Virus record (IMG/VR): IMGVR_UViG_3300031740_000003
Coordinates: 1 to 45,321 of that record
Strand: one strand, 5' to 3'
DNA from: a virus
DNA length: 45,321 nt
The position numbers and the translations under genes were made by a program. The notes below the pieces were generated by a model. That model saw only the letters and a program-made list of their open reading frames with translations, ran no database searches and was not told the DNA's origin. This document shows, in pieces, positions 1-45,321 of the stretch. Within the stretch, counting starts at the first letter, position 1. Every line of letters starts with the position of its first letter.

Positions 1-127
1 TCCCAGCCGTAGCCGATGGCATGGCCCCTGAGGATAGCCCCGTAAACGGCTTCGCTCATCGGGCTGCGATCCATGATCACGACGTCGTGGGTGTCCAGGG
101 CCTCGATGGCCGGCATGAACATCGGGA
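1..127. repeat. Terminal overlap, left copy
   Basis: These 127 bases are identical to 45195-45321. The overlap lies inside the kinase gene and joins its two halves in frame, so the contig closes into a 45,194-bp circle. A length of exactly 127 matches a commonly used maximum k-mer, so an assembly overlap is more likely than a true terminal repeat. Confidence 0.95.
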
Positions 128-272
128 GAATGCTTTTCTGCCCTGGCTTCGGGTTGACTGCGTGGATGCAGACAACCTTAGCTCCTACTGCCAGGGCCGC
201 GGCTTCGTACTTGCGAGCGAGAGTTGACTTGCCAGAGCCGTCAGGTCCCTCGAGGACGATAAGTTGCGGCAT
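1..272 (-). CDS. Deoxynucleoside monophosphate kinase, N-terminal part (continues at 45194 on the circle)
   Basis: This is the 5' part of a P-loop kinase that continues in frame at the other end of the window (stop at 44963). Joined across the 127-bp overlap it is 167 aa. The start reads MPQLIVLEGPDGSGKST, a Walker A motif with the EGPDGSGKST form typical of thymidylate kinases. Further on, DRSPMSEAVYG resembles the DR(Y/F)-type substrate motif of that family. It should phosphorylate dTMP or another dNMP to the diphosphate in the cytoplasm. GTAGGAGAACAAA gives a good ribosome binding site for the ATG at 272. At 167 aa it is shorter than cellular thymidylate kinases (about 200 aa), as phage dNMP kinases often are. 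The exact substrate cannot be read from sequence; a modified dNMP is possible given the thymidylate-synthase homologue at 4458. Confidence 0.85.
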   Translation of the reverse strand, partial: MPQLIVLEGPDGSGKSTLARKYEAAALAVGAKVVCIHAVNPKPGQKSILPMFMPAIEALDTHDVVIMDRSPMSEAVYGAILRGHAIGYGW

Positions 273-2808: not shown

Positions 2809-3130
2809 CTTGTTGCTCCTGGTCTGGTTGGTATTCATCAATTATGGCGCTTGGATCGTCGTCCACGGTCAATGCTGCGGTGGGGATTGGCGGGGTGTTG
2901 TAGACCTCGCCGGCGGCCAGGTAGTAAGCCTTGGCCGCCTCCAGCTCGGTAATGGCAAGAGTGATCTCAGCCATTTTCAACTCGTTCTCAGCCATGCTCT
3001 GAATCGCCTGTCGGAAGTTCTTCCTGGATTGTTCGTGGGCGTTCTGAGCGCTGATCAGGAGCCTGCGCTTGGCCTGGATGCATTCGTCCAGGGCCGCTGC
3101 CATGTGCGCCCCTGGCGCGACGTCAGTCAT
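2774..3130 (-). CDS. Hypothetical coiled-coil protein, 118 aa
   Basis: I use the start MTDVAPGAHMAAALDE, which overlaps the preceding gene's stop by 8 bases; an upstream extension in the same frame is Arg/Ser-rich antisense-like noise. Residues 10-70 are heptad-like and charged (LDECIQAKRRLLISAQNAHE onwards), consistent with a long helix or coiled coil. The C-terminal 40 residues are acidic and proline-containing. Function unknown. Confidence 0.7.
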   Translation of the reverse strand: MTDVAPGAHMAAALDECIQAKRRLLISAQNAHEQSRKNFRQAIQSMAENELKMAEITLAITELEAAKAYYLAAGEVYNTPPIPTAALTVDDDPSAIIDEYQPDQEQQDADQASDELRP

Positions 3131-3350
3131 CGTCGTCCTCTTCGTCTTCGTACTCGTCGACGCCGTAGATCGACGCTCGGACCTCCTCCTTGAGGATGAC
3201 CTTGACGAGCTGGAAGGCCTGTGCATCGGTAAACCCGACGCGGAGGTAGCTCTGATAGTACTCGTTCAGGAACAGGGCCGTGTCGTCGATGGATAGCATC
3301 GCCGGCGGTTGAGGCCGCTGACCGCTTGACGGGGTCGGGAACTCGTCCAT
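3123..3350 (-). CDS. Hypothetical protein with acidic tail, 75 aa
   Basis: It begins MDEFPTPSSGQRPQPPAMLS and ends in a nearly pure Asp/Glu tract (DEYEDEEDDDD). The centre (FTDAQAFQLVKVILKEEV) looks like a helical element. The leader AAGGAGACCAGTC precedes the ATG. It is the first gene after a promoter-like element at 3378-3393. The acidic tail could bind a basic protein surface or mimic nucleic acid (inference). Confidence 0.75.
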   Translation of the reverse strand: MDEFPTPSSGQRPQPPAMLSIDDTALFLNEYYQSYLRVGFTDAQAFQLVKVILKEEVRASIYGVDEYEDEEDDDD

Positions 3351-3377
3351 GACTGGTCTCCTTGCTTGTAGCTGTTG

Positions 3378-3393
3378 TTGTTCTTATATGGTA
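3378..3393 (-). promoter_or_regulatory. Promoter-like element TACCATATAAGAACAA
   Basis: On the minus strand this reads TACCATATAAGAACAA, 28 bp before the ATG of the 75-aa gene. The same 16 bases recur exactly at 38717-38732 in the same orientation ahead of another minus-strand gene. TACCAT would serve as the -10 box. It resembles the TACTATATAG elements described elsewhere in the window. Confidence 0.6.
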
Positions 3394-3423
3394 TAACGTG
3401 CGATGGGGGCTGGGAGCCCTTAT

Positions 3424-4101
3424 TTACCGGGGATCCCGTGGGTGCTTCTTGGCTCCGTCCATCAATTCCCACTGTTCCCAGTCAGCCTGGTTGGAGGGGG
3501 CGAACTCTGAATCTTTCGGTGGACGCCCCAGGGCGCCGGCGATGCGGAAGCGAGTCCGAACGCCCTTGTCCCGGTTGATGTAGTAGCCACTGACGTTTCC
3601 AGGCTGCTTTTCGGGCTTAGCCTCGCTGACCACAATGGTGGTGCCGGCTTCGTGGAAGATCTCAGTGTTCCAGGCGATCAGGAACTCGGTGACCGTACTT
3701 GCCACGGTTTCGGAGCCGATGCGGTAGGTCGTAAAGAGCCGACCAAGAGGGGAATACCTTACCGAGGACACAATGAAACCCTTCCACAGGACCTCGTTAG
3801 GGTCTGTGATGTTGCCGTCAGCGTCGAGCCAGCCGCCCTTGGGAGGGATAATATCCCCAATGCAAATCTCGTCGACCTTTACCTTTTCACCCCCAATACC
3901 CCACAGTTTTTTGTCTCCGTCCGGGCGACGCGGGAACTTGACGAGCTCAAGCGGCTGAAAAGTCCAGGTCGTTTGGTCGGTCTGGATGGTGATGATGCCA
4001 TCGACACAGTAGATCGATTCGACGACCTGGTAGCTAGTGTACGGGTCCATCGGTTCGAGCCGCATTCCTTGCCGTACTTGCCATGCTTGCTTAGCTGCCA
4101 T
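3424..4101 (-). CDS. Hypothetical protein, 225 aa, first gene of the leftward region
   Basis: It begins MAAKQAWQVRQGMRLEPMDP and ends GAKKHPRDPR. It looks beta-rich in the first half (YQVVESIYCVDGIITIQTD, WTFQPLELVKF), compatible with an SH3/KOW-like fold, but I cannot name a family. ACAAGGAGGCTCGCCATC gives a strong ribosome binding site. It is the promoter-proximal gene of the leftward early region and faces the divergent control region 4102-4457. An early regulatory role is inference from position only. Confidence 0.8.
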   Translation of the reverse strand: MAAKQAWQVRQGMRLEPMDPYTSYQVVESIYCVDGIITIQTDQTTWTFQPLELVKFPRRPDGDKKLWGIGGEKVKVDEICIGDIIPPKGGWLDADGNITDPNEVLWKGFIVSSVRYSPLGRLFTTYRIGSETVASTVTEFLIAWNTEIFHEAGTTIVVSEAKPEKQPGNVSGYYINRDKGVRTRFRIAGALGRPPKDSEFAPSNQADWEQWELMDGAKKHPRDPR

Positions 4102-4457
4102 GATGGCGAGCCTCCTTGTGTTGGGGTTAATAGGAACAGTCTACCCTGGTCTGGAAGGCTTGGGAAGCTTTTTTAGTCGGGAGTTCTACAGGGTGTTTTC
4201 AACCCACAGTGATACAGGCGAAAAGCAACTCTAGACAGAGTCTCTAGAGATATATACTATTATTTTTTAGATAATGTTCACATGTAGGACTGTTCAGACT
4301 AGCTTCTGGGGTCTATAGGTATAAATAAATATTATAAAAAGATAAGAAGAGATAGTAGGACTCCCGGCATCTTCCCTTGGTCTGACTTGGTTCTGAGAGC
4401 CAGTTGCTTGGTAGGATGGAGGAACCAATCCACTTCGACTGAAGGACTTCGATTCTG
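4102..4457. promoter_or_regulatory. AT-rich divergent control region
   Basis: About 355 bp with no credible gene lie between the leftward region (4101) and the rightward thymidylate-synthase operon (4458). It includes a markedly AT-rich core (about 4250-4360) with runs such as TATATACTATTATTTTTTAG and TATAAATAAATATTATAAAA. A 7-bp inverted repeat sits at 4229-4249. A plausible -10 (TAGGAT, 4412-4417) serves the rightward operon and TAGACT (near 4136-4141, minus) the leftward genes, but neither has a strong -35. An origin of replication here is possible but unproven. Confidence 0.6.
4229..4249. repeat. Palindromic operator-like site CTCTAGA-N7-TCTAGAG
   Basis: Perfect 7-bp arms, CTCTAGA (4229-4235) and TCTAGAG (4243-4249), are separated by CAGAGTC. 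The site lies at the edge of the AT-rich core between divergent operons, a usual place for a dimeric regulator's operator. I found no second copy by eye. Confidence 0.55.
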
Positions 4458-5306
4458 ATGAGCGAGCAGAGCTACCTGAATCTGGCAAAGCAGATTCTGA
4501 ATTACGGTGAGACCCGCACCGACCGAACGGGGACAGGAACGCGTTCCATCTTCGGAGCGCACCTGGAGTGGGACCTCCACGACAAGACCGTCGCCCTGGT
4601 GACCACGAAGGAGGTCGCCTGGGACAAGGCCCTCCATGAGCTCTGCTGGATGCTCCGCGGAGACACCTCGCTGGAAGGACTCGGGCCGGCCAGAAACATC
4701 TGGGAACCATGGGCTGACGAGCATGGACAGCTAGGGCCGATCTATGGAGCCCAGTGGCGAGGGACGACTTTCGCCTCTTCCCTCGGTGAAGAAGGCGCCG
4801 GTGACGGTTCGCTTCGGGTGGATCAGTTGGCGAACGTGATTGACTTGCTTCGTCAGTCGCCTGACACCCGCAAGGCTGTCCTGTCAGCTTGGAGCCCCCG
4901 CGATCTCCCGATGATGGCCCTGGAGCCATGCCCAGTGCTGTACCAGTTTTCAAGGCGAGGAGCGACCTACGGTGACCTGGAGCTGAGCGTCTACCAGCGT
5001 TCGGCGGACATGTTCCTGGGAGTCCCGTTCGACCTTTTTGAAATGAGCGTCATGGCTCACCTGGTGGCTCGCGAGCTCGGGATACGGGCGACTCGGCTGA
5101 TCTGGAACGCCGGAGACACCCACATCTACAAGAACCACTTGCCCCAGATGATGGAGCAGGTCGGGCGTCGGATCTCCAAGCACGTTCCGTCTCTGGTCGT
5201 CAAGGACCGGGCACCCGCGCTTCTGGACCCCTCGCTGGCTCGCCGGCACCTGGAGATCTGGAACTACGCTTCACTGCCCCGTCTGACCGGAAAGGTAGCT
5301 GTCTGA
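4458..5306 (+). CDS. Thymidylate synthase family protein, possibly dCMP-specific
   Basis: This is a 282-aa ThyA-fold enzyme. Visible motifs are DRTGTGT (22-28, phosphate-binding Arg23), HELCWMLRGDT (60-70), IWEPWADEHGQLGPIYG (81-97), RKAVLSAW (138-145), catalytic Cys158 in LEPCP, YQRSADMFLGVPFD (179-192) and GDTHIYKNH (219-227). In dUMP-specific synthases the last residue of the LGLPFN motif is Asn (E. coli N177); here it is Asp192. T4 dCMP hydroxymethylase has Asp at this place, and Asn-to-Asp mutants of thymidylate synthase gain dCMP activity. The His after the catalytic Cys in E. coli is Pro159 here. So this may methylate or hydroxymethylate dCMP rather than make dTMP. First gene of the rightward operon; the stop overlaps the next ATG by one base (TGATG). 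Confidence 0.93.
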   Translation: MSEQSYLNLAKQILNYGETRTDRTGTGTRSIFGAHLEWDLHDKTVALVTTKEVAWDKALHELCWMLRGDTSLEGLGPARNIWEPWADEHGQLGPIYGAQWRGTTFASSLGEEGAGDGSLRVDQLANVIDLLRQSPDTRKAVLSAWSPRDLPMMALEPCPVLYQFSRRGATYGDLELSVYQRSADMFLGVPFDLFEMSVMAHLVARELGIRATRLIWNAGDTHIYKNHLPQMMEQVGRRISKHVPSLVVKDRAPALLDPSLARRHLEIWNYASLPRLTGKVAV

Positions 5307-5497
5307 TGCTGGAACCAGAGTTCGAGATCAAGGACCACTACGGTGATTCCCTTGCCGTCGCCGCTGACCTCACCAGGAACGAGATCACCTTCACGATCTG
5401 CGAAACCTACGACTGCGCTTCTGCCGAGATCGGGGTCGTGGAGCTGGGAGTTCTGGTCGAGCACCTTGCCGGCCTGATAGGAAAGAGGTTAGTATGA
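5306..5497 (+). CDS. Hypothetical protein, 63 aa
   Basis: It begins MLEPEFEIKDHYGDSLAVAA. The start shares a base with the thymidylate-synthase-family stop (TGATG) and its own stop overlaps the next ATG by 4 bases, so it is embedded in a coupled operon. It is acidic with a predicted helix at the end (VVELGVLVEHLAGLIGKRL). No family recognised. Confidence 0.75.
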   Translation: MLEPEFEIKDHYGDSLAVAADLTRNEITFTICETYDCASAEIGVVELGVLVEHLAGLIGKRLV

Positions 5498-5703
5498 GTA
5501 GGGTCAAGGTTATCTTCTATATGAAGAGCGGCCACCTGATCAAGGTCATGGCTGATGAAATTCAGACGACCCGGGATGAGGCTTCCGGAAGGCTGATGGA
5601 GTTCACCCTGAAAGGGGCTTCCCCTGCGGTGGTAGGTCTCATGTGCGAGAACATCGAGGCGGTCACCTGGACGAGGGTCGGATCCGTTGAGGTGCCGGAA
5701 TGA
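5494..5703 (+). CDS. Hypothetical protein, 69 aa
   Basis: It begins MSRVKVIFYMKSGHLIKVMA and looks like a small beta sheet with one helix (VIFYMKSGHLIKVMADEI). It overlaps both neighbours by ATGA. Similar short single-domain proteins are common in actinophages but I cannot assign a function. Confidence 0.75.
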   Translation: MSRVKVIFYMKSGHLIKVMADEIQTTRDEASGRLMEFTLKGASPAVVGLMCENIEAVTWTRVGSVEVPE

Positions 5704-5996
5704 GTCAGCACCATATCAGCACCCGCCACATGAAGACCGTGAGGCGGAGGTTCCGAGAGGAGTGCAAGGAGAAGGACGAACCTTGCTGGCTCTGCGGACA
5801 GCGGACCATCGACTACGAGACTCAGGGTGAACCTGATTCGTTTAGCCTGGACCACTTCTATCCGGTGAGTACTCACCCCGAGTTCATCACTGACCCGGCT
5901 AACTTCAGGGCTAGCCACTCACTGTGCAACACCAAGCGAGGGAACGCTGCCCCGACAGCCGGCCTCGGAACTACGAGTGAAGACTGGGGAATCTAG
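5700..5996 (+). CDS. HNH endonuclease
   Basis: The 98-aa protein has CWLCG (about residues 29-33), then SLDHFYPVS with the DH pair and NFRASHSLCNTKRGN, which gives the N and final H of the HNH motif and a second Cys. Together these form the beta-beta-alpha-metal nuclease fold. It sits four genes upstream of the terminase small subunit. HNH proteins near terminases can assist cos cleavage during packaging; a free-standing homing nuclease is the alternative. ATGA overlap with the upstream gene. Confidence 0.85.
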   Translation: MSQHHISTRHMKTVRRRFREECKEKDEPCWLCGQRTIDYETQGEPDSFSLDHFYPVSTHPEFITDPANFRASHSLCNTKRGNAAPTAGLGTTSEDWGI

Positions 5997-5997
5997 G

Positions 5998-6315
5998 ATG
6001 CTCCGATTGAAGTTCACTAATGCCGGCGACAACAAGTGGCGCTGGATCATTTACACCGAGCAGGAGGGTGTAGTCCTGCTGACCAGCCCGGCGTATGAGA
6101 CCTTTGCCGCGGCCGAGGAGATGTGCGTCCACTTCTTGATGCACGTCGGCGTGATGCCGGCTCAGTACGCCACGGTCATCACCGGTGCTTTCAAGGAGTG
6201 GAAGCAGGAGATGGCTGAGGAAGAAGACCGGGAGAAGCGCCAGCTGCGGCTTCTCATGGAACAGGATGCTGCTGACGCAGAGGATCAGCAGCGGCTATTG
6301 GATGGAGGACTCTGA
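5998..6315 (+). CDS. Hypothetical protein, 105 aa
   Basis: I use the ATG at 5998 (MLRLKFTNAGDNKWRWIIYT), one base after the HNH stop, with GGGGA as ribosome binding site; a GTG 7 codons upstream is possible. The C-terminal third is a highly charged helix (EWKQEMAEEEDREKRQLRLL). The N-terminal part is beta-like. Stop overlaps the next start (TGATG). Confidence 0.75.
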   Translation: MLRLKFTNAGDNKWRWIIYTEQEGVVLLTSPAYETFAAAEEMCVHFLMHVGVMPAQYATVITGAFKEWKQEMAEEEDREKRQLRLLMEQDAADAEDQQRLLDGGL

Positions 6316-6665
6316 TGCATGTCAAGTACGAGGAGACCGAGGATGGCGCGTGGATCTTCAAGATCTACACGGTCGGTCATGGTAAGCCGACCGTGAAGTC
6401 GCTGCCTTACAAGACCTTGGAGATGGCATGGATCGGGTACGCTCAGCTGGAGTACGAGATGCGAGAGCTGGAGGATGGGGAGTACGAGCCAGGCTACAGG
6501 TACAAGCCACAGCCTGACCGCTTCCCTGAGCCGAGCAAGAAGAAGCGCCGGACTCGGAAGCAGAAGAGGCGGGCCAAGAAGAAGGGTCTGCTGCTTGGTC
6601 TGCCTGAGGAGTCGAGGCAGCGGCAGATCCTCAACGCTCGGACCGGCGACAAGAGGCCGTTCTGA
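6315..6665 (+). CDS. Hypothetical protein with strongly basic tail, 116 aa
   Basis: It begins MHVKYEETEDGAWIFKIYTV. The first half resembles the upstream protein in style (beta strands then a helix). Residues about 74-92 form a very basic stretch (KKKRRTRKQKRRAKKK), likely to bind nucleic acid. One-base overlaps with both neighbours indicate coupled translation. No family assigned. Confidence 0.75.
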   Translation: MHVKYEETEDGAWIFKIYTVGHGKPTVKSLPYKTLEMAWIGYAQLEYEMRELEDGEYEPGYRYKPQPDRFPEPSKKKRRTRKQKRRAKKKGLLLGLPEESRQRQILNARTGDKRPF

Positions 6666-14735: not shown

Positions 14736-15314
14736 ATGAGTACCGGAACCGATGCCATTCTCGTGGGCGCGCCACTCACCGCTACCGGCGGTGTGCTGTT
14801 TGCAGACCCCGCAGTGGCTGGCCCCACCAACGCAACCACGGCACTGGACGTGGGCTTCAAAGAAGGCGGCTATGTGGGTGAAGACGGGGTAACCCGTACC
14901 ACCGATGCCTCCGACGAAAAGATCAAGGCCTGGGGCGGCGACGTCGTCAAGATCGTCCGCACCGAGCACTCGATCACCTACACCTTCCAGTTCATGGAGT
15001 CCGCGAACGCGGAAGTCCTGAAGCTGATCCACGGCGAGGACAACGTCATCATTGTCCCGGCAGTTCCCGGCACTTCGTCCGGCACTGTCACCGTGAAGCA
15101 GACCTCCAAGCTTCCCCCGCGCAAGCAGTTCGTTCTGGACATGATCGACGCCACCAACACCATCCGCGAGTACATCAAGGATGGCCAGCTCACCAGCTCC
15201 GGCGACGTGGTCTTCGTCCACTCCGACGTGATCCGCTACTCCGTCACCATCGAGGCTTTCCCCGATGACGACGGCGTCAAGGCCATTACCTACATGGATG
15301 ACGGCCTGGGCTAA
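14736..15314 (+). CDS. Major tail (tube) protein
   Basis: The 192-aa protein begins MSTGTDAILVGAPLTATGGV. Features of siphophage tube proteins are visible: KEGGYVGEDGVTRTTDASDE, IKAWGGDVVKIVRTEHSITY and a C-terminal VIRYSVTIEAFPDDDGVKAI. It should polymerise into hexameric rings around the tape measure. The ribosome binding site is CCGAAAGGAACCCG and a strong hairpin follows the gene. Confidence 0.9.
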   Translation: MSTGTDAILVGAPLTATGGVLFADPAVAGPTNATTALDVGFKEGGYVGEDGVTRTTDASDEKIKAWGGDVVKIVRTEHSITYTFQFMESANAEVLKLIHGEDNVIIVPAVPGTSSGTVTVKQTSKLPPRKQFVLDMIDATNTIREYIKDGQLTSSGDVVFVHSDVIRYSVTIEAFPDDDGVKAITYMDDGLG

Positions 15315-15326
15315 GCCCGCAAAAAC

Positions 15327-15364
15327 CTCTTGCCCCTGATTGTGTCGGCTCTCAGGGGCAAGAG
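15327..15364 (+). terminator. Terminator after the major tail gene
   Basis: CTCTTGCCCCTGA pairs with TCAGGGGCAAGAG around a 12-base loop, followed by CTTCACCTTTTC. It is strong as a stem but has an interrupted T-run, so partial termination is likely. It limits expression of the chaperones and tape measure relative to the tube. Confidence 0.75.
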
Positions 15365-15403
15365 CTTCACCTTTTCAAGCCGACAAACCAACAAGGAGCC
15401 GAC

Positions 15404-15709
15404 ATGCCCGTAAGCAAGAAGCGCAAGATCAACCGCAAAGACGGTGGACAGAAGCGCTACGAGATGGTCCAGTTCACTTCCGAACTTTTCGACGAGGGCG
15501 AGACCTTCACCTTCCCAGACCAGAAGCACATGAGCCTCAAGCTCATCGCAGCCCTGAACGAAGGCGACGTCGGAGTTCTGATCGCCTGGCTGATGTCAGC
15601 CAAGGTTGACCCTGCCGAGATCGACGCGATCGGCGAACTTGAGCAGGGCGAGATCGAAGAATTCATGTCCGCCTGGGGCCGAGGATCGACGATCTCACTC
15701 CCAAAATAA
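15404..15709 (+). CDS. Tail assembly chaperone, short form (gpG-like)
   Basis: The 101-aa protein begins MPVSKKRKINRKDGGQKRYE and ends STISLPK. It lies between tube and tape measure, has the acidic helical style of gpG-like chaperones, and its end carries a slippery heptamer for -1 frameshifting. It binds the tape measure during tail assembly and is absent from the mature virion in known phages. Confidence 0.88.
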   Translation: MPVSKKRKINRKDGGQKRYEMVQFTSELFDEGETFTFPDQKHMSLKLIAALNEGDVGVLIAWLMSAKVDPAEIDAIGELEQGEIEEFMSAWGRGSTISLPK

Positions 15710-16107
15710 ACGGCCTGATCCAACTCCACAAAGAGTTCCCGGAGGGCTTCGAGGCCTCGCTCATTGAGCGGGGCCTCCGTTTTCGGGATGTGGGTTCGCG
15801 TGATTTTGACTGGTCCGACCTGCATGCAGTCATCATGACCCTGCCCTATGACTCACCCCTGGAGCGCCAGAAGAACGGGAAAGACTGGCACTGGTACGGG
15901 CCTTTGACGGACATTCTAGCGGGGATCTACGACAATATTGGGGTAGGTGTTGCCACACAAGCTCAACGGCGGAAGTGGCGTAAGTCTGATCTACCTAAGC
16001 CATTGAGACGGCCATGGCAAGTCCAGAAGCACATCGAGAAACTTGGCAAGATTGCGCTGCCTCTGGACCAGGTCCGGGAAAGGCTGGGCTGGAACAAGAA
16101 GAGGTGA
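15404..16107 (+). CDS. Tail assembly chaperone, frameshifted long form (gpGT-like)
   Basis: A -1 shift at 15700-15706 fuses the 101-residue short form to 133 more residues encoded from 15706 to 16107. The extension includes SLIERGLRFRDVGSRDFDWS and ends RERLGWNKKR; the ERGLR(L)RD(V)G pattern is recurrent in the T portions of actinophage chaperones. No credible ribosome binding site exists for independent translation of the T part (an in-frame GTG at 15790 is poorly placed). The low-abundance fusion recruits tube protein to the tape measure. Confidence 0.85.
15700..15706 (+). promoter_or_regulatory. -1 frameshift site CCCAAAA
   Basis: The zero frame reads CTC CCA AAA TAA. C-CCA-AAA is a canonical X-XXY-YYZ heptamer immediately before the stop. 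After slipping one base back, translation continues ATA AAC GGC without a stop into the frame ending at 16107. This is the usual arrangement for siphophage tail chaperones. Confidence 0.88.
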
Positions 16108-30907: not shown

Positions 30908-33112
30908 TCAGGCCCACTGGCGATCCCCGGTATTGACTACCGACAAAGCCACGTTCTCTACCACCTTCCGCGTGGAAGACTCCCGACGAACTTGATACCC
31001 TCGGTCAGTAAGCTGCTTGGAGAAGACCGGGAGGGGCTTCGGCCGGATTGCCAGGTCCTTGCACCAGATGGCGTACGCGTGGTAAATCCCCATGATCGAT
31101 TCCTCCATGCCGTCCTGAGGGCGGAGAGCCTCGTTGAGGAACATCCCCAAGACGTCTTGGTCCTCCTTGTAGTCGGCCACTGCGGCAAGGACAGTCAACG
31201 GTTCGTGGATCTTGCCGTCATCGGTGTTCAGGTAATGCCTTGCCCCTTCGACGATCCAGGCAAGGACAGCTTCGGCCTCGGTGGTCTTCATACTGGTCTT
31301 GACACGCGGATCCCTCTGGCTCTTAGGAATCGAGTGCGGGAAGGTGATCCGCTTCAGCCGGCGCATGAGGGCGTCGTCAGTAGACATCGGGTCGTGGTTC
31401 GTCGCGATCCAAAGCTTGAACTGAGGGAAGAAGTCGAACGCCCTCATGTACAGGTGCCGAGCCGTGGTCCTGTCCCCGGAAGTCACCTGCTTAGTCAGAC
31501 GGTCGTTGAAGTGGTCACCTTCGTCGATCTCCGCGATGGACACCATCCTGGCCCCCGCCATCCGCGCGAGGTCAGTCTCAGGCACCTGGCCGCGCCGACG
31601 CATGAAGACGTGGGACGGAACAGTGATGGAGTAGTCTCCGAGGGCGTGCTCGATAGCCAGCATGTAGGTGCTCTTGCCAGATGAACGAGGACCTGAGATA
31701 ACGAAGAAGCTCTCGTCATTGGTCAATCCTGTGGCCGTGTAGCCGGCGGCATCCTGCAAGTACGTCAACAGTTCTTCGTCGCCCTGGGTGCTTACCCCAA
31801 GGAAATCCTCCCAGAGCTGGCTCCTTGCCGACGGAGAGTATTTGACCCTGGTGTTTTTAGTCACCAGATCATTGCGGGAGTAGGGCCTCAGGGTCCCAGT
31901 CCGGAGATCCACGATGCCATTCTCGCAGGCGAGCTCCTCCGGGTTGCTGTCAAAGTCATCCATCTGACGGACGATCTTCGGGCTCTGCTCTACCAGGGCC
32001 TGAAGCGCCTTGTTGCCGGCAGCCGACCGGACTCGCGAGTAGCATGCTTCGTATTTGGTCCTCAGGGTCTTGTCCACGTAGGCCATGGTCGAGACCTCCT
32101 CCAGCAGGATATCTCCCACTGCCAGGAGGTTGGCCCTCAGCATGTAGTCCTCCATCGGCTGCCAGCCGCGGTCAGACCACATCAGCCAGCCAATAGCCGG
32201 CGAGAAGCGGAGGTCGTCACCGAAGGCCTTGATGAACCTGTCGGCGCAGCCCTGCTCGTCCAGCGGGAAGAAGCCCTGCTCGTCGAGAACTTCAGCCGGC
32301 TTGGAGTGGTCCTGCTTGAAAGCGGAATCGATGCACTTGGCTGCCTCAGCCCTGGAGAAGTTGGCTGCATCGGCAGCGGCGAAGATGACCGTCTCGATAA
32401 ACGAACGGCCTTCATCTTTGTCGCCTTCATGCTGGCGACGAAGCCGGCAAGCCAGCTTGAACAGGGTGTCATCCCGCTGGCCCTCTGGCAAGCCGGCAAG
32501 GATGGTCGGCAGGTCTGAGAGATCCATGCCTCCTTCTGCCTTGGAGCTTGGCGCCTGGAGCGCATCGTGCAGCTCTACTGAGATAGGTGCTATGGCCCTG
32601 GCGTTGGCCTCCCAGCGGTAGGTGCCACCTGAAAGGTGGTTGGACGGCGGCAGGAGAACATAGCCGCCGTTGGCCCGGACGTCGATGCCCGGCATCCACC
32701 CGACCTTGTTCTTGTAGTCAGAGTTCGAGGGGCAGGAGTAGTACAGGTGCCGGCCACCACCGCCAGTCAGAACGCGGAGGGTGTCGATAAAGGCGTTCGG
32801 GACGTTCCGATCCATTTCCTCTGCCGACTCGAAGCCGCCTGACTTACGGTCGATGTCGATCACGATGACGCCTGAGGCGACACCGGTTGCCAGAGCCCAG
32901 TTGGCTCCCGGCCAAGTCTTGTCCCACTGCTTGACGACAGCTGGATCCGTGGTGGCGTCCTTGACACCGTTGACCGTGCGGGGGTGCTTGCCCTGGCTCT
33001 TGCAGCCGTCCTTGCCACAGGTGCACTTGCCGTCGATGATTGAGTGGCAGGGGAAAATTGCCCAGCCCTGGGAGACTAGCGCCAGGAGGTTCTCAAGATC
33101 TTGGCTCTGCAT
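30908..33112 (-). CDS. Primase-polymerase / SF3 helicase fusion protein
   Basis: The 734-aa protein joins a PrimPol domain (about 1-190) to a D5-type helicase. PrimPol marks: CTCGKDGCKSQGKHP (about 30-44), VIDID (Asp86 and Asp88), GGGGRHLYY with His122, and GIDVRANGGYVLLPPSNHL with Asp144. The D5_N-like middle leads to Walker A GPRSSGKST (474-482), Walker B SIAEIDEGDH and the SF3 motif C WIATNHDP. It should unwind the template and lay down primers at the replication fork. It is the last gene of the leftward replication region and its stop touches the bidirectional terminator. Confidence 0.93.
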   Translation of the reverse strand: MQSQDLENLLALVSQGWAIFPCHSIIDGKCTCGKDGCKSQGKHPRTVNGVKDATTDPAVVKQWDKTWPGANWALATGVASGVIVIDIDRKSGGFESAEEMDRNVPNAFIDTLRVLTGGGGRHLYYSCPSNSDYKNKVGWMPGIDVRANGGYVLLPPSNHLSGGTYRWEANARAIAPISVELHDALQAPSSKAEGGMDLSDLPTILAGLPEGQRDDTLFKLACRLRRQHEGDKDEGRSFIETVIFAAADAANFSRAEAAKCIDSAFKQDHSKPAEVLDEQGFFPLDEQGCADRFIKAFGDDLRFSPAIGWLMWSDRGWQPMEDYMLRANLLAVGDILLEEVSTMAYVDKTLRTKYEACYSRVRSAAGNKALQALVEQSPKIVRQMDDFDSNPEELACENGIVDLRTGTLRPYSRNDLVTKNTRVKYSPSARSQLWEDFLGVSTQGDEELLTYLQDAAGYTATGLTNDESFFVISGPRSSGKSTYMLAIEHALGDYSITVPSHVFMRRRGQVPETDLARMAGARMVSIAEIDEGDHFNDRLTKQVTSGDRTTARHLYMRAFDFFPQFKLWIATNHDPMSTDDALMRRLKRITFPHSIPKSQRDPRVKTSMKTTEAEAVLAWIVEGARHYLNTDDGKIHEPLTVLAAVADYKEDQDVLGMFLNEALRPQDGMEESIMGIYHAYAIWCKDLAIRPKPLPVFSKQLTDRGYQVRRESSTRKVVENVALSVVNTGDRQWA

Positions 33113-33146
33113 TGTGACTCCTAAAAAGTGAGTGGGTGGTTAGACG

Positions 33147-33178
33147 GGTTTGCCCCTCCTTTTCAGAAGGGGCAAACC
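33147..33178 (-). terminator. Hairpin between the NTP-pyrophosphatase and primase genes
   Basis: GGTTTGCCCCT pairs with AGGGGCAAACC. On the minus strand a CCGTCTAACC tail follows, not a U-run, so it may attenuate or stabilise mRNA rather than fully terminate; the primase gene downstream needs read-through or its own promoter. Confidence 0.55.
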
Positions 33179-33195
33179 TCTCGACTCCTGGGGTG

Positions 33196-33684
33196 TCAGA
33201 CCCAGTACTTGGACTGCGTGGTGTCGCACTCGATGTAGGCGCCTTCGTTGGAGTAAATCTGCTGGCAGCTTACTCCGACGTCGTCTAGTGCTCGCTTGCA
33301 CCCAGGGCACTTCCCCTGGATGCCGTCGTAACCGTCTTGCTGGCGCTTGCGGTTCTTGTCGTTCTTCTCCCTGTACTGGTCATAGAGGGTGTCTGGTGTT
33401 CCCCCGCCGAGCACGTACAGGTTGATCAGGAAGTGGAGCGCGTCGACGATCTCACCCTGGAAGGCTCGCTCGTTCACATGCCGGCTTGTGGCCCATGGCT
33501 TCCACCCTGCCTCATTCAGCGCCTCATGGAGTTCATCCGTGAGGGCCAGGACGTTGTTCTTGATCTGCTGAATCCTGACTTCGGATATCTCCCTGGCCGC
33601 CAGGGCCTCCATGTCGAGGCCGTAGGCCTCTCGCTGGAGGCTGACCTGGCGGTCAAAGATATCCTGCAGGCGATCTCCCGCCAC
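33196..33684 (-). CDS. All-alpha NTP pyrophosphatase (dimeric dUTPase/dCTPase-like) with C-terminal zinc ribbon
   Basis: The 162-aa protein begins at GTG 33684, sharing a base with the upstream stop (TAGTG). It has ELHEALNEAGWKPW (ExxE plus Trp), EIVDALHFLINL (ExxD) and KNDKNRKRQQDGYDG, the metal-binding and KNxxNxxRQxxGY-type motifs of dimeric dUTPase/dCTPase enzymes. It would hydrolyse dUTP and perhaps dCTP to the monophosphate. The C-terminal 40 residues (KCPGC...SCQQIY...ECD) form a putative zinc ribbon, not usual in the family. It fits with the dCMP deaminase, thymidylate-synthase homologue and kinase. Confidence 0.85.
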   Translation of the reverse strand: MAGDRLQDIFDRQVSLQREAYGLDMEALAAREISEVRIQQIKNNVLALTDELHEALNEAGWKPWATSRHVNERAFQGEIVDALHFLINLYVLGGGTPDTLYDQYREKNDKNRKRQQDGYDGIQGKCPGCKRALDDVGVSCQQIYSNEGAYIECDTTQSKYWV

Positions 33685-34244
33685 TAGAACGGCAGCTTCG
33701 GTGCACCCGGATTCGCGACCGGGGCTTCTTCAGCGAGCATCCCCGGGTATTCCCCGGCTGGCTCGGCTGCTGCTGCTGCAGGAGCTGCAGCCGGCGTCGG
33801 GATGGAGGGGGTCATCGAGTTGACCGACCCCGTGCCGGCCGAGACGGCCGTCATGCCCTTCACGTTCTCACGGTCTCGTCCCTGCCAGGACGAGTGGTCG
33901 ATCGTGACGTCGGCGACTGCGCCGACCATCTTGGCTGCCACCTGTTCGGTGGTCGGCTTCGGGTTGCCCTTGAGGTAGGCCTCGCTGATGCCCAGGGCCG
34001 CCATGTTCACGAAGAACATGTAGAGGGCCTTCTTGTTGTCGGTGGTCATCGTGATGTTGTTGTAGACGGTCTTGCCGGTCTTGGGGCCGGTGATGACCTC
34101 CATGACGACCTTGAACATCAGCTTGCCCGTGCTGGCCTGGGTGGCCTCGGCCTTGATGACCTTCATGCGGTACTTGCCAACCGGCAAGATCTCAAAGGCG
34201 TCTGCCGAATCGTCGAGGAGAGATCCCCAGTTTACATCTGCCAT
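33684..34244 (-). CDS. Single-stranded-DNA-binding-like protein (OB-fold, DUF669 type)
   Basis: The 186-aa protein begins MADVNWGSLLDDSADAFEIL. PVGKYRMKVIKAEA followed by KLMFKVVMEVITGPKTGKTV and VYNNITMT is the pattern of phage SSB-like DUF669 proteins. A long Ala/Pro-rich linker leads to an end (PGAPKLPF) that recalls the short hydrophobic C-terminal tail of SSBs that recruits partners. It sits between the Sak4-type ATPase and the dUTPase-like gene. ssDNA binding is inferred. Confidence 0.8.
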   Translation of the reverse strand: MADVNWGSLLDDSADAFEILPVGKYRMKVIKAEATQASTGKLMFKVVMEVITGPKTGKTVYNNITMTTDNKKALYMFFVNMAALGISEAYLKGNPKPTTEQVAAKMVGAVADVTIDHSSWQGRDRENVKGMTAVSAGTGSVNSMTPSIPTPAAAPAAAAAEPAGEYPGMLAEEAPVANPGAPKLPF

Positions 34245-34262
34245 GTCGTGCTCCTTTGTCGG

Positions 34263-35063
34263 TTACTGCTGGTCTTCGGGAAATACTAATGCTAGCATTT
34301 CCGGGATGGTTGGGTTGCGTACCGGGTTCGGTAGTCGCCCTTGTACTCGCTCGCCAGCCTCAAACATATCGTGGGGGTTGACGAGCATCTGCCTCTGTGG
34401 AGCCAGGACTTTGGTGGGGTCAGTCGGGTCTGTCTCAGCCGCTACGTAGAGATAGCCGATGACGTCCAAGAAGTACGGGAGCTTCACCTGCAAGGCTCCC
34501 TGGACGTAAGGACGGTACTTGCCATCCTTCATCTGGGTCATAGCCGTCAAGACCACGACTTCGATCGGGTTGATGGGGTGCTCAGTCAGATCTCGGAAGC
34601 CGCGTACGAGCTTGTCCATCTCGTACAGTAGGTCTCCCCAGAGCTGCTGGCTCATCTGGCCTGAGGCCGTCAACTGGTCCCGGCACCTTGACTGGATCTC
34701 TGAGACGGAGTCGATGCCCAAGCTCCTGAATGGGTGCTGACCTGAGTTCAGCCACTCATAGGCCTTGCTCATGTCGGCGTACTCGCGGACGATCACCACG
34801 CAGGTTTCCCAGAGTCCGTTGTGCTCAGGTGGCGCCTCGGTCTTCGGGTCCCAGAAGACCTTGACTCCTGGCAGGAATCGGTAGGCCATCTCGGCGTCGA
34901 TCAACAGTCGCGGCGGGAAGGTCGTGTTCGTGATCGTGCTCTTGCCGGCCTTCGACCCACCATGGACGATGAGTGACATGGCCACTCCCTTCCGCCGAGG
35001 TGGGCATGCGTCGTAGACCTTCTTGAGCCTGGCCCGAAGTTCCTCTTCGGTTTCCTTAGCCAA
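34263..35063 (-). CDS. Sak4-like RecA-type ATPase
   Basis: The 266-aa protein has a Walker A (HGGSKAGKST, about residues 34-43), LLIDAEMAYRF, and FRSLGIDSVSEIQ as Walker B. These match the AAA_24/Sak4 single-strand annealing ATPases that pair with phage SSBs in recombination. The neighbours (Cas4-like nuclease upstream, SSB-like downstream) support this. It overlaps the nuclease gene by 8 bases. Confidence 0.87.
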   Translation of the reverse strand: MAKETEEELRARLKKVYDACPPRRKGVAMSLIVHGGSKAGKSTITNTTFPPRLLIDAEMAYRFLPGVKVFWDPKTEAPPEHNGLWETCVVIVREYADMSKAYEWLNSGQHPFRSLGIDSVSEIQSRCRDQLTASGQMSQQLWGDLLYEMDKLVRGFRDLTEHPINPIEVVVLTAMTQMKDGKYRPYVQGALQVKLPYFLDVIGYLYVAAETDPTDPTKVLAPQRQMLVNPHDMFEAGERVQGRLPNPVRNPTIPEMLALVFPEDQQ

Positions 35064-36000
35064 TTTCTTCCTGCCCTTCTTCTTGGTAACGAGCGTCTGG
35101 ATCCGAGTGGACCAGGTGCTCTTGCATTGCCAACTCTACATTGGATCCATCGTCGAAGAGCGGGCAAATTGACGTAAACGGGCACTTCCAGGAACAGTCC
35201 CGACTCGGCCTCGGCGGTACCACGTACTGCATCGGCTGACCTTCGTCGAGGTCTTTCCGGGCCTGGACGATCCGCTCCACCAGCTTCATAGTGGCAAGGT
35301 AGAAATTCTGGATCTCCGCCTTGTTGTGCCGGACTTCTTCCCGCTTGTAGAAGGGCGGCTTTGCTGCTGCCGTGCGGCCGACCTTCCGAAGCATGGTGTA
35401 CCTCGCGCCGTCCGTGTACTCGTCAGGCTTGATCAAGTACTCCAGCAGGTGGTAGAACTTCATCTGCTCGTTCAGGACCAAAAGAAGCCTGTCGGTGAAG
35501 CTCTTTGTGGTCTTCCAGTCGTTGAAGAGAATGGCGCCATCACTCAAACGCTTTACCCTCTGGTCCAGCTTGCCTCGGAGTGACACCCCAGGGAGATCCG
35601 GCAGCTGATAGATGAGGACCTCCTCGTTGCTCAGGACCGCATAGCCGGCATCGAGCCCCTCCTCCTCGCGCCAGTCCAGGAACCCGCGGATCATGGCCAC
35701 TGCTAGGGCCTTCTCCTTGGTCAGTTCCTTCTTGGCATCCTCAGGAAATTCCATCTCCGACAGCTTCTCGAAGTCCTCGTCGTACATCTGGTTGATGAGG
35801 TCCATCGGGTCGTTGTCCAGGTCGGAATAGATGATCTCCAGGACCTTGTGGATCTTGGTTCCCAGGGCAAGGGGGCCCCAGAGCGCAGACCGGCGCGGAG
35901 CCAGCTCCCGATAGTATTTGATATACCAACGGCGTTCGCAATCCTTGAACTCTTGGATTTGCGAATTGCTAATGAATAGTTCCTTATTGATCTTCGGCAT
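35056..36000 (-). CDS. Cas4/RecB-like PD-(D/E)XK exonuclease
   Basis: The 314-aa protein starts MPKINKELFISNSQIQEFKD (ATG 36000, six bases from GGAG). The RGKLDQRVKR...FNDWKTTKS segment gives the Asp and (D)xK catalytic residues. One N-terminal Cys (KDCERRWYIKYY) and three C-terminal Cys (RDCSWKCPFTSICPLF) fit the 4Fe-4S cluster of Cas4/AddB-type nucleases. It probably makes 3' single strands for the Sak4-type recombinase. No Cas genes or CRISPR array are nearby. Confidence 0.88.
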   Translation of the reverse strand: MPKINKELFISNSQIQEFKDCERRWYIKYYRELAPRRSALWGPLALGTKIHKVLEIIYSDLDNDPMDLINQMYDEDFEKLSEMEFPEDAKKELTKEKALAVAMIRGFLDWREEEGLDAGYAVLSNEEVLIYQLPDLPGVSLRGKLDQRVKRLSDGAILFNDWKTTKSFTDRLLLVLNEQMKFYHLLEYLIKPDEYTDGARYTMLRKVGRTAAAKPPFYKREEVRHNKAEIQNFYLATMKLVERIVQARKDLDEGQPMQYVVPPRPSRDCSWKCPFTSICPLFDDGSNVELAMQEHLVHSDPDARYQEEGQEEIG

Positions 36001-37813
36001 CAACTTCTCCTTTCAAGAGGGCTTCCAGGAATTTCTTGTCTCGCATGACTTCTTCCAGGTTGTCTCCCTTCTTGGCGAGAACCCCGAGCCTGGTCTCATC
36101 GATCGTGCCTGGAGTGATCAGATCGACGATGGTAATGCTCTCATGGACCTCAGCCCCGATACGATGGATCCGGTCCTCAGACTGCTTGGACTGGCTCATC
36201 TTCCAGGGCCGCTGCATGAAGCACAGGGTGTCGGCCCTGGTCAGCGTCAAGCCTTCAGCCCCGACCCCTGTGATGCAGAGGATCACCCGGACCCTGCCAC
36301 CCTGGAAGTCGTTGACTGCCTTCTGCCGTTGGTCAGGCGTCTGGCCTCCGACGACTTCAGCCCAGGTGATGTCAGCCTTGTCCAAGGCCGGCTTGGTGAT
36401 CTCGATCAGCTGGCGACTGGCAGAGAAGACCACAAGAGGCTTTCCGTCCATGTCCTCCAGGAGCTCCAACAGGCCGTTGACCTTGTTGGATGGGTTGGTC
36501 ATGCGGTAACCGCCCTCGCCGTCCTCCTCCATTGCCGCCGACGCCATCTGATCTAGGCGCATGACCTTTGTCAGGGTGTTGTCGACGACCATATAGGATG
36601 CTGGTTTCAGCTCTGCGAGCATGCCCTTCTTCATCTGGTCGTACTGCTTCTTCTGGACAGCAGTCATCTGGATGAAGCGCTTCACGTAGGTCTTGTCAGG
36701 CAGGTCCTTCAGGACAGCCTTCTTAGACACCCGCCGAAGGTACGGATCGATGATTGTGAGAAGCTCATCCTTGGTTTCAGGGTTGAGGCCCTTCACGATC
36801 ATTCCCCCGAAAGGGTTGTAGCCCAGGTCACAGTAGCGGTCGATGTACTTCCCTTTGTTGGAGAAGCTCTCGGGCTGCATGAGGTGAAGAGCTCCCCAGA
36901 GATTATCTGGGGCGGACGTCATCGCCGTGCCTGTCAGGCAGTAAGCGAACTCGACTCCCTTGCCTACGGCCCAGATCGCCCTGGTGTGCTTGGTCTTAGG
37001 CTCCTGGATCCTGTGAGCCTCGTCGACGATGATCGTCTTCCAGCCCTTCTTATTCAGTTCCTTGGGGCAGACTTCGCACTTGACCTGGGTCCTGGCAGGG
37101 TCGTCTACTGTCTTGTCGCAGACGATGCAGGTCTGGAGCTTGATCGAGCCGTACCCGGTGAGCCTGGAGTGGTACCGGACGGTCTCGTAGTTGATGATGT
37201 AGACGTCAGCCTCAGCGGCGATGGCTGCTCGACGCTGGGTGATGTTGCCGGCGATCATCGAGACCCTGACCTCGGGGTTCCACTTCTGGAACTCCTGTTC
37301 CCAGACCTTGGTCAGGGAGGTCGGCGCGACGATGATCGCTGGGTAAGGCATCTGGCCTGTCTGCTTCAGATATTCCAGGGTGTAGATGGTCTGGGCCGTC
37401 TTGCCGGTTCCCATCTCATCACACAGGTAAGAGGTCTTGGTCGTGGCAAGGAATTTCACCCCTGCCTCCTGGAACGGACGAAGGTCGTGTTCCCTCTTGC
37501 CCCTAAAGCTGGCGATGATCGGGTCGTCGTTGACGCCCTCGATGCTCATCCTCAGGGCAAGGGCTGGGTCGATGACCGTCTCCCGCAGGTTGACTGCCCA
37601 GTCCATCAGCTTGTCGCCGATGATCAGCTGGTTCCCGAAGATTCCCCGGAGTTGGTTGCATGCAGCCCAGGTCAGCGGGGCGATCCAGCCGGCACCGTCA
37701 GTAAACCTGGAGCCGACCATCTGCTTGATGCGATCCTTGTCCCGCATCGGGTAGTCGCTGTCAAGGCCAATGAACTCCTTGCCCTTGTAGCTGGTGATCT
37801 CAGCGGTAATCAT
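35984..37813 (-). CDS. SNF2-family DNA helicase/translocase
   Basis: The 609-aa protein starts MITAEITSYKGKEFIGLDSD, its ATG overlapping the upstream stop (TAATG). Motif I is DEMGTGKTAQT (132-142), motif II DEAH (264-267), motif III LTGTAM, and near the C-terminus GAEGLTLTRADT and QSEDRIHRIGA (motifs V and VI). A four-Cys zinc site (C229, C232, C246, C249) is inserted just before motif II, unusual for a phage SNF2. It likely remodels replication or recombination intermediates. Confidence 0.92.
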   Translation of the reverse strand: MITAEITSYKGKEFIGLDSDYPMRDKDRIKQMVGSRFTDGAGWIAPLTWAACNQLRGIFGNQLIIGDKLMDWAVNLRETVIDPALALRMSIEGVNDDPIIASFRGKREHDLRPFQEAGVKFLATTKTSYLCDEMGTGKTAQTIYTLEYLKQTGQMPYPAIIVAPTSLTKVWEQEFQKWNPEVRVSMIAGNITQRRAAIAAEADVYIINYETVRYHSRLTGYGSIKLQTCIVCDKTVDDPARTQVKCEVCPKELNKKGWKTIIVDEAHRIQEPKTKHTRAIWAVGKGVEFAYCLTGTAMTSAPDNLWGALHLMQPESFSNKGKYIDRYCDLGYNPFGGMIVKGLNPETKDELLTIIDPYLRRVSKKAVLKDLPDKTYVKRFIQMTAVQKKQYDQMKKGMLAELKPASYMVVDNTLTKVMRLDQMASAAMEEDGEGGYRMTNPSNKVNGLLELLEDMDGKPLVVFSASRQLIEITKPALDKADITWAEVVGGQTPDQRQKAVNDFQGGRVRVILCITGVGAEGLTLTRADTLCFMQRPWKMSQSKQSEDRIHRIGAEVHESITIVDLITPGTIDETRLGVLAKKGDNLEEVMRDKKFLEALLKGEVDAEDQ

Positions 37814-38253
37814 TAGACGTCCACGATCCTTCCGAGGTCGATGAGTTTGTGGGTTGCCATGTAGAGCATCAGATGCCGGCTGGCGTCGTCGGCGTGGCCG
37901 GCGAACCCCTTGGTCGAACCCTTGTACCAACCTAGCACCTTGAGCCGGGCGTCAGACCCGAAGTTCTTGGCTTGGCTCGGCTGCTGCATGACCGGAGGGT
38001 TCAGGCCGGCTTCTTGGCAGATGTACTCGATAGCGCCGATTAGCCTAAGCGACCAGGTCGACTGTGACTTCTTGGCGGTCTCCATGGTGATGAAGAAATT
38101 CTCGCAGATGATGTAGGCCTCAGGGTGTTCTCGGATGAACCTGGCTACAGCCGGCGCAGTCTCCTCGTAGGTGACTTCTGCCGAGCCATGCTCTTCATTG
38201 ACCCACCAGGCCAGCCCCGTCATTTTTCCGGGGTCTACAGACAGGATCTCCAT
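37813..38253 (-). CDS. RuvC-like Holliday junction resolvase
   Basis: The 146-aa protein has LSVDPGKMTGLAWW (first Asp), YIICENFFI (Glu) and HADDASRHLMLY (final Asp pair), the RNase-H-fold pattern of RuvC-type phage resolvases. It would cut branched DNA before packaging. Coupled to the SNF2 gene by a TAATG overlap. Confidence 0.88.
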   Translation of the reverse strand: MEILSVDPGKMTGLAWWVNEEHGSAEVTYEETAPAVARFIREHPEAYIICENFFITMETAKKSQSTWSLRLIGAIEYICQEAGLNPPVMQQPSQAKNFGSDARLKVLGWYKGSTKGFAGHADDASRHLMLYMATHKLIDLGRIVDV

Positions 38254-41624: not shown

Positions 41625-42092
41625 TTAGGCCCACATCTCCTCGACCCTGACACCGCACTGCAGAAGGAACTCGGCGCCAACCAGCTTGCGGCCCTCCTCG
41701 GTACCGGTAGGAACTATCACCCGCATGATCCCAGAGTTAGCGATCGCCTTGGCGCAGGCCATGCAAGGCAGCTTGGTGATGTACATGGTCCCTCCCTTTC
41801 GGCGAGCCTGGTCTGAGTATAGCAGGGCGTTCATCTCGGCATGGTTCGAAGGGCAATCCGTATAGCCTGGATCCTTTGCCATCGGGAGCTTCAGCCGGCG
41901 ATCGCAAAACATCGCGCAGCTTTGCTCGTCATCCCCCCGGCATGAGTAGCCGGCTGGAGGGCCATTGTAGCCAGTGGCCTGGATCCTGCCGTCGGCTCCG
42001 ATGATGACCGCGCCGACCTGGATATCGCACTTGGACCTGGTCGCGATCACTTTGGCCACCTCCATCCAGGTCTTGTCTTCTGTCCGTCTCAT
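41625..42092 (-). CDS. Deoxycytidylate (dCMP) deaminase
   Basis: The 155-aa protein (from MRRTEDKTWMEVAKVIATRS, ATGA overlap; an ATG at 42107 is also possible) has CPSNHAEMNALL and LPCMACAKAIANSGI, giving the His, catalytic Glu and two Cys zinc ligands of dCMP deaminases. An upstream CRGDDEQSCAMFC cluster may hold a second zinc, as in T4 Cd. It converts dCMP to dUMP for thymidylate synthesis. Partner enzymes in the window: dUTPase-like 33196, thymidylate-synthase homologue 4458, kinase at the junction. Confidence 0.92.
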   Translation of the reverse strand: MRRTEDKTWMEVAKVIATRSKCDIQVGAVIIGADGRIQATGYNGPPAGYSCRGDDEQSCAMFCDRRLKLPMAKDPGYTDCPSNHAEMNALLYSDQARRKGGTMYITKLPCMACAKAIANSGIMRVIVPTGTEEGRKLVGAEFLLQCGVRVEEMWA

Positions 42093-42235
42093 AGCTTCTG
42101 AACCCATCCTTTCCTGACTCCGCAGTCCTCGCAGACGATGCTGTGAATTACAAGGTTACCACTCATCTGGGGCATCGATTCCTCAAACCGGTGAACCCCA
42201 GTGAAGCACCTCCACTTTGCCCGAAGTCTATTCAT
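42089..42235 (-). CDS. Small zinc-ribbon-like protein, 48 aa
   Basis: It begins MNRLRAKWRCFTGVHRFEES and ends RKGWVQKL. Cys10, His15 and the CEDCG pair (35-38) could bind a metal. The longer frame upstream is a shadow of the coiled-coil gene. Its start overlaps that gene's end by 8 bases and its stop overlaps the deaminase start. Confidence 0.65.
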   Translation of the reverse strand: MNRLRAKWRCFTGVHRFEESMPQMSGNLVIHSIVCEDCGVRKGWVQKL

Positions 42236-44811: not shown

Positions 44812-44970
44812 CTATTTCTTATGTGACTTTACCAGGAGCCTGGAGACGAATCCGACGACCGGAAGGACCAGCAAGCCGGCACCGGCTAGCATGATGCTCA
44901 GCCAGGCCTGGAAGGCTGCTGACTGGTCGTCGAGTCCAATGAAGTACTCTTCTGCCTCTTCGTCATTCAT
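44812..44970 (-). CDS. Small membrane protein, 52 aa
   Basis: It begins MNDEEAEEYFIGLDDQSAAF and ends RLLVKSHKK. An acidic N-terminus precedes one hydrophobic helix (about 22-45) and a basic tail, so N-out/C-in topology is likely. Its ATG overlaps the kinase stop (ATGAATGA). Function unknown; small membrane proteins of this kind are common in phage early regions. Confidence 0.72.
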   Translation of the reverse strand: MNDEEAEEYFIGLDDQSAAFQAWLSIMLAGAGLLVLPVVGFVSRLLVKSHKK

Positions 44971-45321
44971 CGGAGAAGTCCAGGTACTTCCAGCCGTACT
45001 CGGACAGGGTCATGATCGCGGCACGGTACTCGTTGACGATTTCCTGGAACTTGTCGATGGGCACGAAGTGCTCACCTTCAGGTCGATTGTAAGCCCGCTC
45101 GATCAGCTGCTCGTTCGAGGCGTCCAGAACGATGGCGGTGATCTTTAGGTTCGGGTCGACGTTGAAGTTGATGAACCTGTTCCACATGGCCCATTCCCAG
45201 CCGTAGCCGATGGCATGGCCCCTGAGGATAGCCCCGTAAACGGCTTCGCTCATCGGGCTGCGATCCATGATCACGACGTCGTGGGTGTCCAGGGCCTCGA
45301 TGGCCGGCATGAACATCGGGA
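44963..45321 (-). CDS. Deoxynucleoside monophosphate kinase, C-terminal part (continues from position 1)
   Basis: This is the 3' part of the kinase whose start is at 272. The window cuts the gene twice: 45195-45321 repeats 1-127, so the joined gene is 272-1 then 45194-44963, 167 aa. Visible here are MDRSPMSEAVYGAILRGHAI, a substrate/lid region, and VLDASNEQLIERAYNRPEGE, similar to the Arg-containing lid of thymidylate kinases. The stop overlaps the start of the 52-aa membrane protein. Confidence 0.85.
   Translation of the reverse strand, partial: PMFMPAIEALDTHDVVIMDRSPMSEAVYGAILRGHAIGYGWEWAMWNRFINFNVDPNLKITAIVLDASNEQLIERAYNRPEGEHFVPIDKFQEIVNEYRAAIMTLSEYGWKYLDFSDE
45195..45321. repeat. Terminal overlap, right copy
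   Basis: Identical to 1-127. Counting this once gives a 45,194-bp circular map. Confidence 0.95.

Follow-up and report, generated by a model that had tools for sequence, protein, structure and literature searches.

Known cytosine-specific enzymes of the thymidylate synthase family

Described systems close to the one analyzed here include members of the thymidylate synthase (TS) family that act on cytosine nucleotides. In phage Xp12, 5-methylcytosine replaces all cytosine (PMC9206674, PMC11946847); 5-methyl-dCMP is a substrate of known dCMP deaminases, and Xp12 itself obtains dTTP by deamination of 5-methyl-dCTP (PMC12088426). The dCMP hydroxymethylase of phage T4, gp42, carries a hydroxymethylation signature consisting of Asp145 and Ser94, with Leu as the TS residue at the place of Asp145 (PMC6400193). 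The CMP hydroxymethylases MilA and BcmA also have Asp for cytosine, and the preference of MilA for ribose is marked by Ala at position 167 and Lys at position 126 (PMC5175136). In the MetaGPA study, positions 147 and 177 (E. coli ThyA numbering) were the top two residues linked to cytosine modification in phage metagenomes, with Asp as the mark of modified-cytosine contigs; TS co-occurred with dCMP deaminase domains, and the Asn-to-Asp change switches TS to dCMP, yielding 5-methyl-dCMP (PMC8670742).

Genome and host

The stretch of DNA analyzed here (the window) is the IMG/VR virus record IMGVR_UViG_3300031740_000003, with a length of 45,321 nucleotides. Positions 45195 to 45321 are a perfect 127-bp copy of positions 1 to 127 and join the two halves of a kinase gene. 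The window is apparently a complete circular genome of 45,194 bp and, since it is taken as complete, the absence of particular genes becomes meaningful. It belongs to a tailed phage, with terminase, portal, protease, capsid, and tape measure genes on the plus strand and replication genes on the minus strand. The best relatives of its terminase and polymerase come from phages of actinobacteria (Propionibacterium, Arthrobacter, Micrococcus, Gordonia, and Microbacterium), and an actinobacterium of this kind is therefore the probable host; an IMG/VR scan for polymerase relatives returned nothing close. The only tRNA gene found in the window is that for tRNA-Ala (CGC), at 1842-1924 on the minus strand. 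Three copies of a 73-nt unit (29105-29177, 29996-30068, and 30519-30591), each with a G+C-rich inverted repeat and, after it, TACTATATAGATAyCAAC, are located just before small open reading frames, and this unit looks like a terminator-plus-promoter cassette. The features considered below are as follows.

1..272, minus strand: N-terminal part of a dTMP kinase/dNMP kinase-like gene that crosses the contig ends (P-loop GPDGSGKST; TIGR00041, 8e-7)
4458..5306, plus strand: TS-family enzyme, predicted dCMP C5-methylase dependent on 5,10-methylene-tetrahydrofolate (PF00303, Asp192/Pro159 pair, clade, AlphaFold2 model)
4929..4934, plus strand: codons of Cys158 (TGC, 4929-4931; equivalent to the nucleophile Cys146) and Pro159 (CCA, 4932-4934; replaces His147)
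5031..5033, plus strand: codon GAC of Asp192, equivalent to E. coli ThyA Asn177 (PFD for PFN)
30908..38253, minus strand: rest of the replication module (RuvC-like protein, SNF2 helicase, PD-(D/E)XK nuclease, RecA-like AAA_24, DUF669, and Prim-Pol/D5 primase), in the same order as in Micrococcus phage Kurnik
39356..41179, minus strand: DNA polymerase I, family A (PF00476, 4.9e-64; 43% identity to the Kurnik polymerase)
41625..42107, minus strand: dCMP deaminase with HAE, PCxxC (Zn), and the GYNG allosteric motif (PF00383, 3.3e-20; phrog_174 dCMP deaminase, 2.4e-42; 45% identity to the Kurnik deaminase)
44963..45194, minus strand: C-terminal part of the same dTMP kinase-like gene (rejoined protein)

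Active site of the TS-family enzyme

The reading frame at 4458-5306 is complete, with an ATG start, 282 amino acids, and zero internal stops, and in a Pfam search PF00303 spans the whole protein (E value of 7e-78). It is the sole TS gene of the record, as neither a second TS nor ThyX was found in the window genome. The AlphaFold2 model (pLDDT of 87.6) has only thymidylate synthases as its best PDB matches, including the Lactobacillus casei N229 mutants 1jmf and 1njc; Asn229 is the equivalent of E. coli Asn177, and 1njc was crystallized with dCMP. A ThyA fold can be confidently assigned to the protein on the basis of this model, and the general features of the superfamily are all in place, namely, the full-length fold, the catalytic Cys, and the counterparts of Glu58, Arg166, Asp169, His207, and Tyr209.

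E. coli ThyA is homologous to the window TS over its full length, and among the residues checked the two proteins differ at only two places. The sequence-only reading had put Asp192 at the place of Asn177 and Pro159 after the catalytic Cys158, where E. coli has His147. Both placements are borne out by the gapless alignment of the window motif YQRSADMFLGVPFD with YQRSCDVFLGLPFN of E. coli ThyA and by the codons listed above. The substrate-binding and catalytic residues R23, E61, W82, Y96, R138, R181, S182, D184, H222, and Y224 are retained, as is the C-terminal GKVAV, with the VAV tail typical of ThyA. Sequencing error or chance as the source of Asp192 was ruled out, since Asp is invariant in the window protein and 12 related actinophage-type TSs.

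Thus, the Asn177 of dUMP-specific ThyA is replaced here by the Asp found in cytosine-type members of the family. T4 dCMP hydroxymethylase likewise has this Asp, as seen in the gp42 alignment, with Thr at position 147; published Asn-to-Asp mutants of TS shift to dCMP (PMC8670742). With Ser182 and Arg138, the window TS is of the deoxyribose type, in contrast to the Ala and Lys (ribose type) of MilA and BcmA, and it does not have the residues of a CMP hydroxymethylase. We consider it likely that the enzyme is cytosine specific. In mechanistic terms, a ThyA-derived enzyme would have exchanged uracil for cytosine as its base: Asp192, in place of the uracil-selecting Asn, could protonate and hold the N3/N4 edge of cytosine, and the loss of His147 would remove the water network to uracil O4.

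Relatives and phylogeny

The closest known proteins are the TSs of Microbacterium phages of the genus Dismasvirus, with no more than 48% identity, all of which are annotated as “thymidylate synthase.” The TSs of BAjuniper (filed in cluster EB), Kenzers, Quenya, and Stromboli resemble the window TS in having Asp177, a lost His147, and a TS-type tail; PFD is present in the Dismasvirus TSs examined, but the catalytic Cys is followed by Met, whereas the window TS has Pro. The gene complements differ as well: dihydrofolate reductase (DHFR) is encoded beside or near the TS in Dismasvirus but was not found in the window genome, whereas the window phage encodes a dCMP deaminase and no PF00383 deaminase was found in Dismasvirus.

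In a tree of 129 rows, built with both trait columns (147 and 177) excluded from the alignment, the window TS and 12 others from Microbacterium Dismasvirus phages and IMG/VR contigs form a clade with SH-aLRT support of 99. This 13-row clade uniformly has Asp177 with Pro or Met at position 147 and is placed within a set of ThyA sequences with Asn and His. Counting supported branches only, the tree as a whole requires at least 6 changes between Asp and Asn at position 177. As His147 is retained in 18 of the 42 Asp-type rows, the change at position 147 is not required; coupling of the two positions over independent tree pairs ran in one direction only and was not significant.

A single-sequence scan of IMG/VR gave Asn/His TSs only, and detection of the Asp type needed an alignment-based scan together with a DNA pattern whose last codon encodes Asp. 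The pattern scan identified 41 Asp-type TS stretches in IMG/VR, 40 of them readable. Among the matches listed, a residue other than His at position 147 was seen in 15/40 Asp-type versus 1/79 Asn-type TSs (Fisher p of 1e-7, uncorrected for relatedness), where the counts are of sequences and not of independent events. In cellular genomes, the Asp pattern matched 14 stretches; several of them lie outside TS genes, and none is closely related to the window TS. DHFR accompanies 19 of 23 Asp-type versus 2 of 20 Asn-type records (10/14 versus 2/20 after collapsing by lineage). A dCMP deaminase is encoded in 9 of 23 Asp-type and 3 of 20 Asn-type records, a difference that is not significant by record (p of 0.10), and in five Asp-type records its gene lies within ~1 kb of the TS gene.

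Several of these contigs have unusual arrangements. DHFR and an Asp-type TS seemingly form one long reading frame, like the protozoan DHFR-TS fusion, in G017 (34457-36079; L136), and one frame read through TAG codons in G008 (29559-31163; L097), which suggests a phage recoding TAG. A TS with Asp at position 177 is also found in three IMG/VR contigs of ~171 kb, i.e., of T4 size (L103, L121, and L127); in G019, which contains L103, no TS other than the Asp-type one was found, and DHFR is its neighbor.

An ordinary or relaxed thymidylate synthase that works mainly on dUMP and tolerates Asp could account for the retention of all other checked ThyA residues and would fit the Asp-type rows that keep His147, and the phage deaminase could provide its dUMP. 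We regard this explanation as quite improbable, given that Asp is fixed clade-wide along with the loss of His147, that published Asn-to-Asp mutants move to dCMP, and that Asp marks modified metagenomic contigs (PMC8670742).

Phages AXL1 and A1432, relatives of Xp12, represented the Xp12 type in the residue comparison. AXL1 gp63 and its A1432 counterpart share Cys-Pro and Asp177 with the window TS but are remote in sequence and have Asn143 (at the place of T4 Asp145), Ser92 or Ala92, and a different C terminus. Other proteins are closer to the window TS than the Xp12-type enzymes, which also diverge from it at positions 92 and 143 and in the tail and are therefore viewed as analogous rather than as a direct template. 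The ThyA-like dCMP methylase predicted for the window phage and Dismasvirus is apparently independent of them. From the TS, Zn deaminase, and DHFR set of the Xp12-like phages, the window has the first two; both AXL1 and A1432 likewise have a deaminase gene, and AXL1 has DHFR, unlike the window. In the Xp12-type phages, the deaminase and TS genes are adjacent, with a pyrophosphohydrolase gene adjoining in AXL1, whereas the window deaminase is in another operon.

Methylation versus hydroxymethylation

The sequence-only reading allowed either 5-hydroxymethyl- or 5-methyl-dCMP as the product. Its dCMP-type assignment is strengthened by the clade-wide Asp177 and loss of His147, which recur in AXL1, A1432, and T4 gp42 and fall on the two positions of PMC8670742; the choice of product can be narrowed. 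T4 gp42 shares with the window TS the superfamily, the catalytic Cys, Asp for cytosine, and the replacement of His147 (by Thr), but it has Asp145 and Ser94 and no ThyA tail, whereas the window TS has Leu155 and Pro94 at those places and keeps the tail. There is no Asp or Glu three residues before the catalytic Cys and no Ser or Thr two residues before the Tyr equivalent to Tyr94, and ThyA Leu143, Pro92, and Trp80 (E. coli numbering) are all preserved. DHFR is needed when methylation oxidizes tetrahydrofolate, while hydroxymethylation does not need it. Because the T4 signature is absent, the catalytic residues and C-terminal tail remain those of ThyA, and DHFR, although lacking in the window, is common in Asp-type phages, 5-methyl-dCMP is the likelier product, a preference we hold with less assurance than the choice of base. 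With the tail, Trp82, and Leu155 in place and no water-activating Asp, the enzyme should carry the ThyA reaction through to its end: once the methylene group of 5,10-methylene-tetrahydrofolate has been transferred, hydride transfer would follow, giving 5-methyl-dCMP and dihydrofolate, the latter to be recycled by host DHFR.

The possibility that the enzyme is instead a dCMP hydroxymethylase like T4 gp42, making 5-hydroxymethyl-dCMP that is possibly further decorated, draws on the Asp177 and non-His147 common to both enzymes and on the T4-type enzymes that accompany the sister replication module of Kurnik and are also found in Microbacterium phage McGalleon. It appears unlikely, as the window TS has Leu155/Pro94 rather than the Asp/Ser signature (PMC6400193) and a ThyA tail, its relatives encode a DHFR that hydroxymethylation would not require, and the scans named no glycosyltransferase in the window, whereas Kurnik and McGalleon have annotated ones.

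The comparison with Kurnik (OR756649) covers a colinear set of genes with 35 to 48% identity, coding for the deaminase, polymerase, RuvC, SNF2 helicase, exonuclease, RecA-like protein, DUF669, and primase. The Kurnik TS is T4-type, with D143, S92, T147, and D177, where the window TS has Leu, Pro, Pro, and Asp, respectively. In Kurnik 4656-5405 and 14924-19770, this “thymidylate synthase” with the full T4 signature is found with a PRA-PH pyrophosphohydrolase (PF01503), two annotated glycosyltransferases, and a C5 DNA methylase nearby, making Kurnik a likely glycosyl-5-hydroxymethylcytosine phage of an actinobacterium. The sister of the window replication module is thus paired with a predicted cytosine-modifying TS of different origin, which is counted as support for the cytosine specificity of the window enzyme. 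In McGalleon (Ilzatvirus, NC_049927), a TS with Asp143, Ser92, Thr147, and Asp177 is clustered within 4 kb (2923-6597) with genes for a glycosyltransferase, a thymidylate kinase, and a nucleotide pyrophosphohydrolase. Matches to its TS type come from about 190 Microbacterium records, with the signature residues read in McGalleon only.

Fate of the product

The predicted 5-methyl-dCMP could be destined for DNA, for dTMP, or for both. On the path to DNA, it would be phosphorylated by the dTMP kinase-like enzyme, whose whole rejoined form has 167 amino acids (PF02223, 3.2e-7; PF01712, 1.9e-6), and the phage DNA polymerase I would need to accept the modified dNTP, resulting in 5-methylcytosine DNA, as in Xp12. 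The dCMP deaminase would trim the dCMP pool and feed dUMP and dTMP, as it could make dUMP or, from 5-methyl-dCMP, dTMP. An aromatic residue described close to the methyl group in the Xp12 and T4 deaminases is missing from it, an absence from which no inference is drawn. The case for linking the deaminase to the TS is weak because it is encoded in a separate operon, at a place common to other actinophage replication modules. No dCTP pyrophosphatase was detected in the window with PF03819, a search that also missed the Kurnik pyrophosphohydrolase (PF01503); without such an enzyme, replacement of cytosine might be partial. Since AXL1 keeps the GC content of its host (PMC9206674), the presence of 5-methylcytosine was not judged from base composition.

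Alternatively, dCMP methylation followed by deamination by the phage enzyme could form a thymidylate route (dCMP to 5-methyl-dCMP to dTMP) that leaves ordinary bases in the DNA. The window does encode a dCMP deaminase, such enzymes act on 5-methyl-dCMP, Xp12 makes dTTP from 5-methyl-dCTP (PMC12088426), and the TS and deaminase genes are close together in several Asp-type phages. However, Dismasvirus has the same TS with no PF00383 deaminase, so deamination is probably not the main purpose of the TS there; a dNMP kinase is present in the window; and both uses coexist in Xp12, so that 5-methylcytosine in DNA would still be compatible with this route. An exclusive role in dTMP synthesis therefore seems improbable, and we lean, by a small degree, toward the presence of 5-methylcytosine in virion DNA.

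Implications

The gene content and active-site residues indicate that the window phage and the Dismasvirus phages probably make 5-methylcytosine nucleotides for DNA, as Xp12 does. Enzymes of this kind are already known from Xp12 and, as Asp-type TSs, from phage metagenomes; the family shared by the window phage and Dismasvirus is newly recognized. A literature search of partial coverage found no report of base modification in Microbacterium phages. More tentatively, many phages of Microbacterium and of related Micrococcales may modify cytosine at C5, by means of two only remotely related TS-family enzymes, either a ThyA-derived dCMP methylase (window phage and Dismasvirus) or a T4-type dCMP hydroxymethylase accompanied by glycosyltransferases (Kurnik as well as McGalleon and its kin), with colinear replication modules pairing with either. 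If the predictions are right, a large group of isolated phages labeled as carriers of “thymidylate synthase” would have modified cytosine in their DNA, namely, 5-methylcytosine in Dismasvirus and 5-hydroxymethylcytosine, maybe glycosylated, in the McGalleon-type phages. The Dismasvirus phages exist as isolates, which makes this reading directly testable, and the family would offer a ThyA-like dCMP methylase for studying base choice and the methyl-versus-hydroxymethyl outcome.
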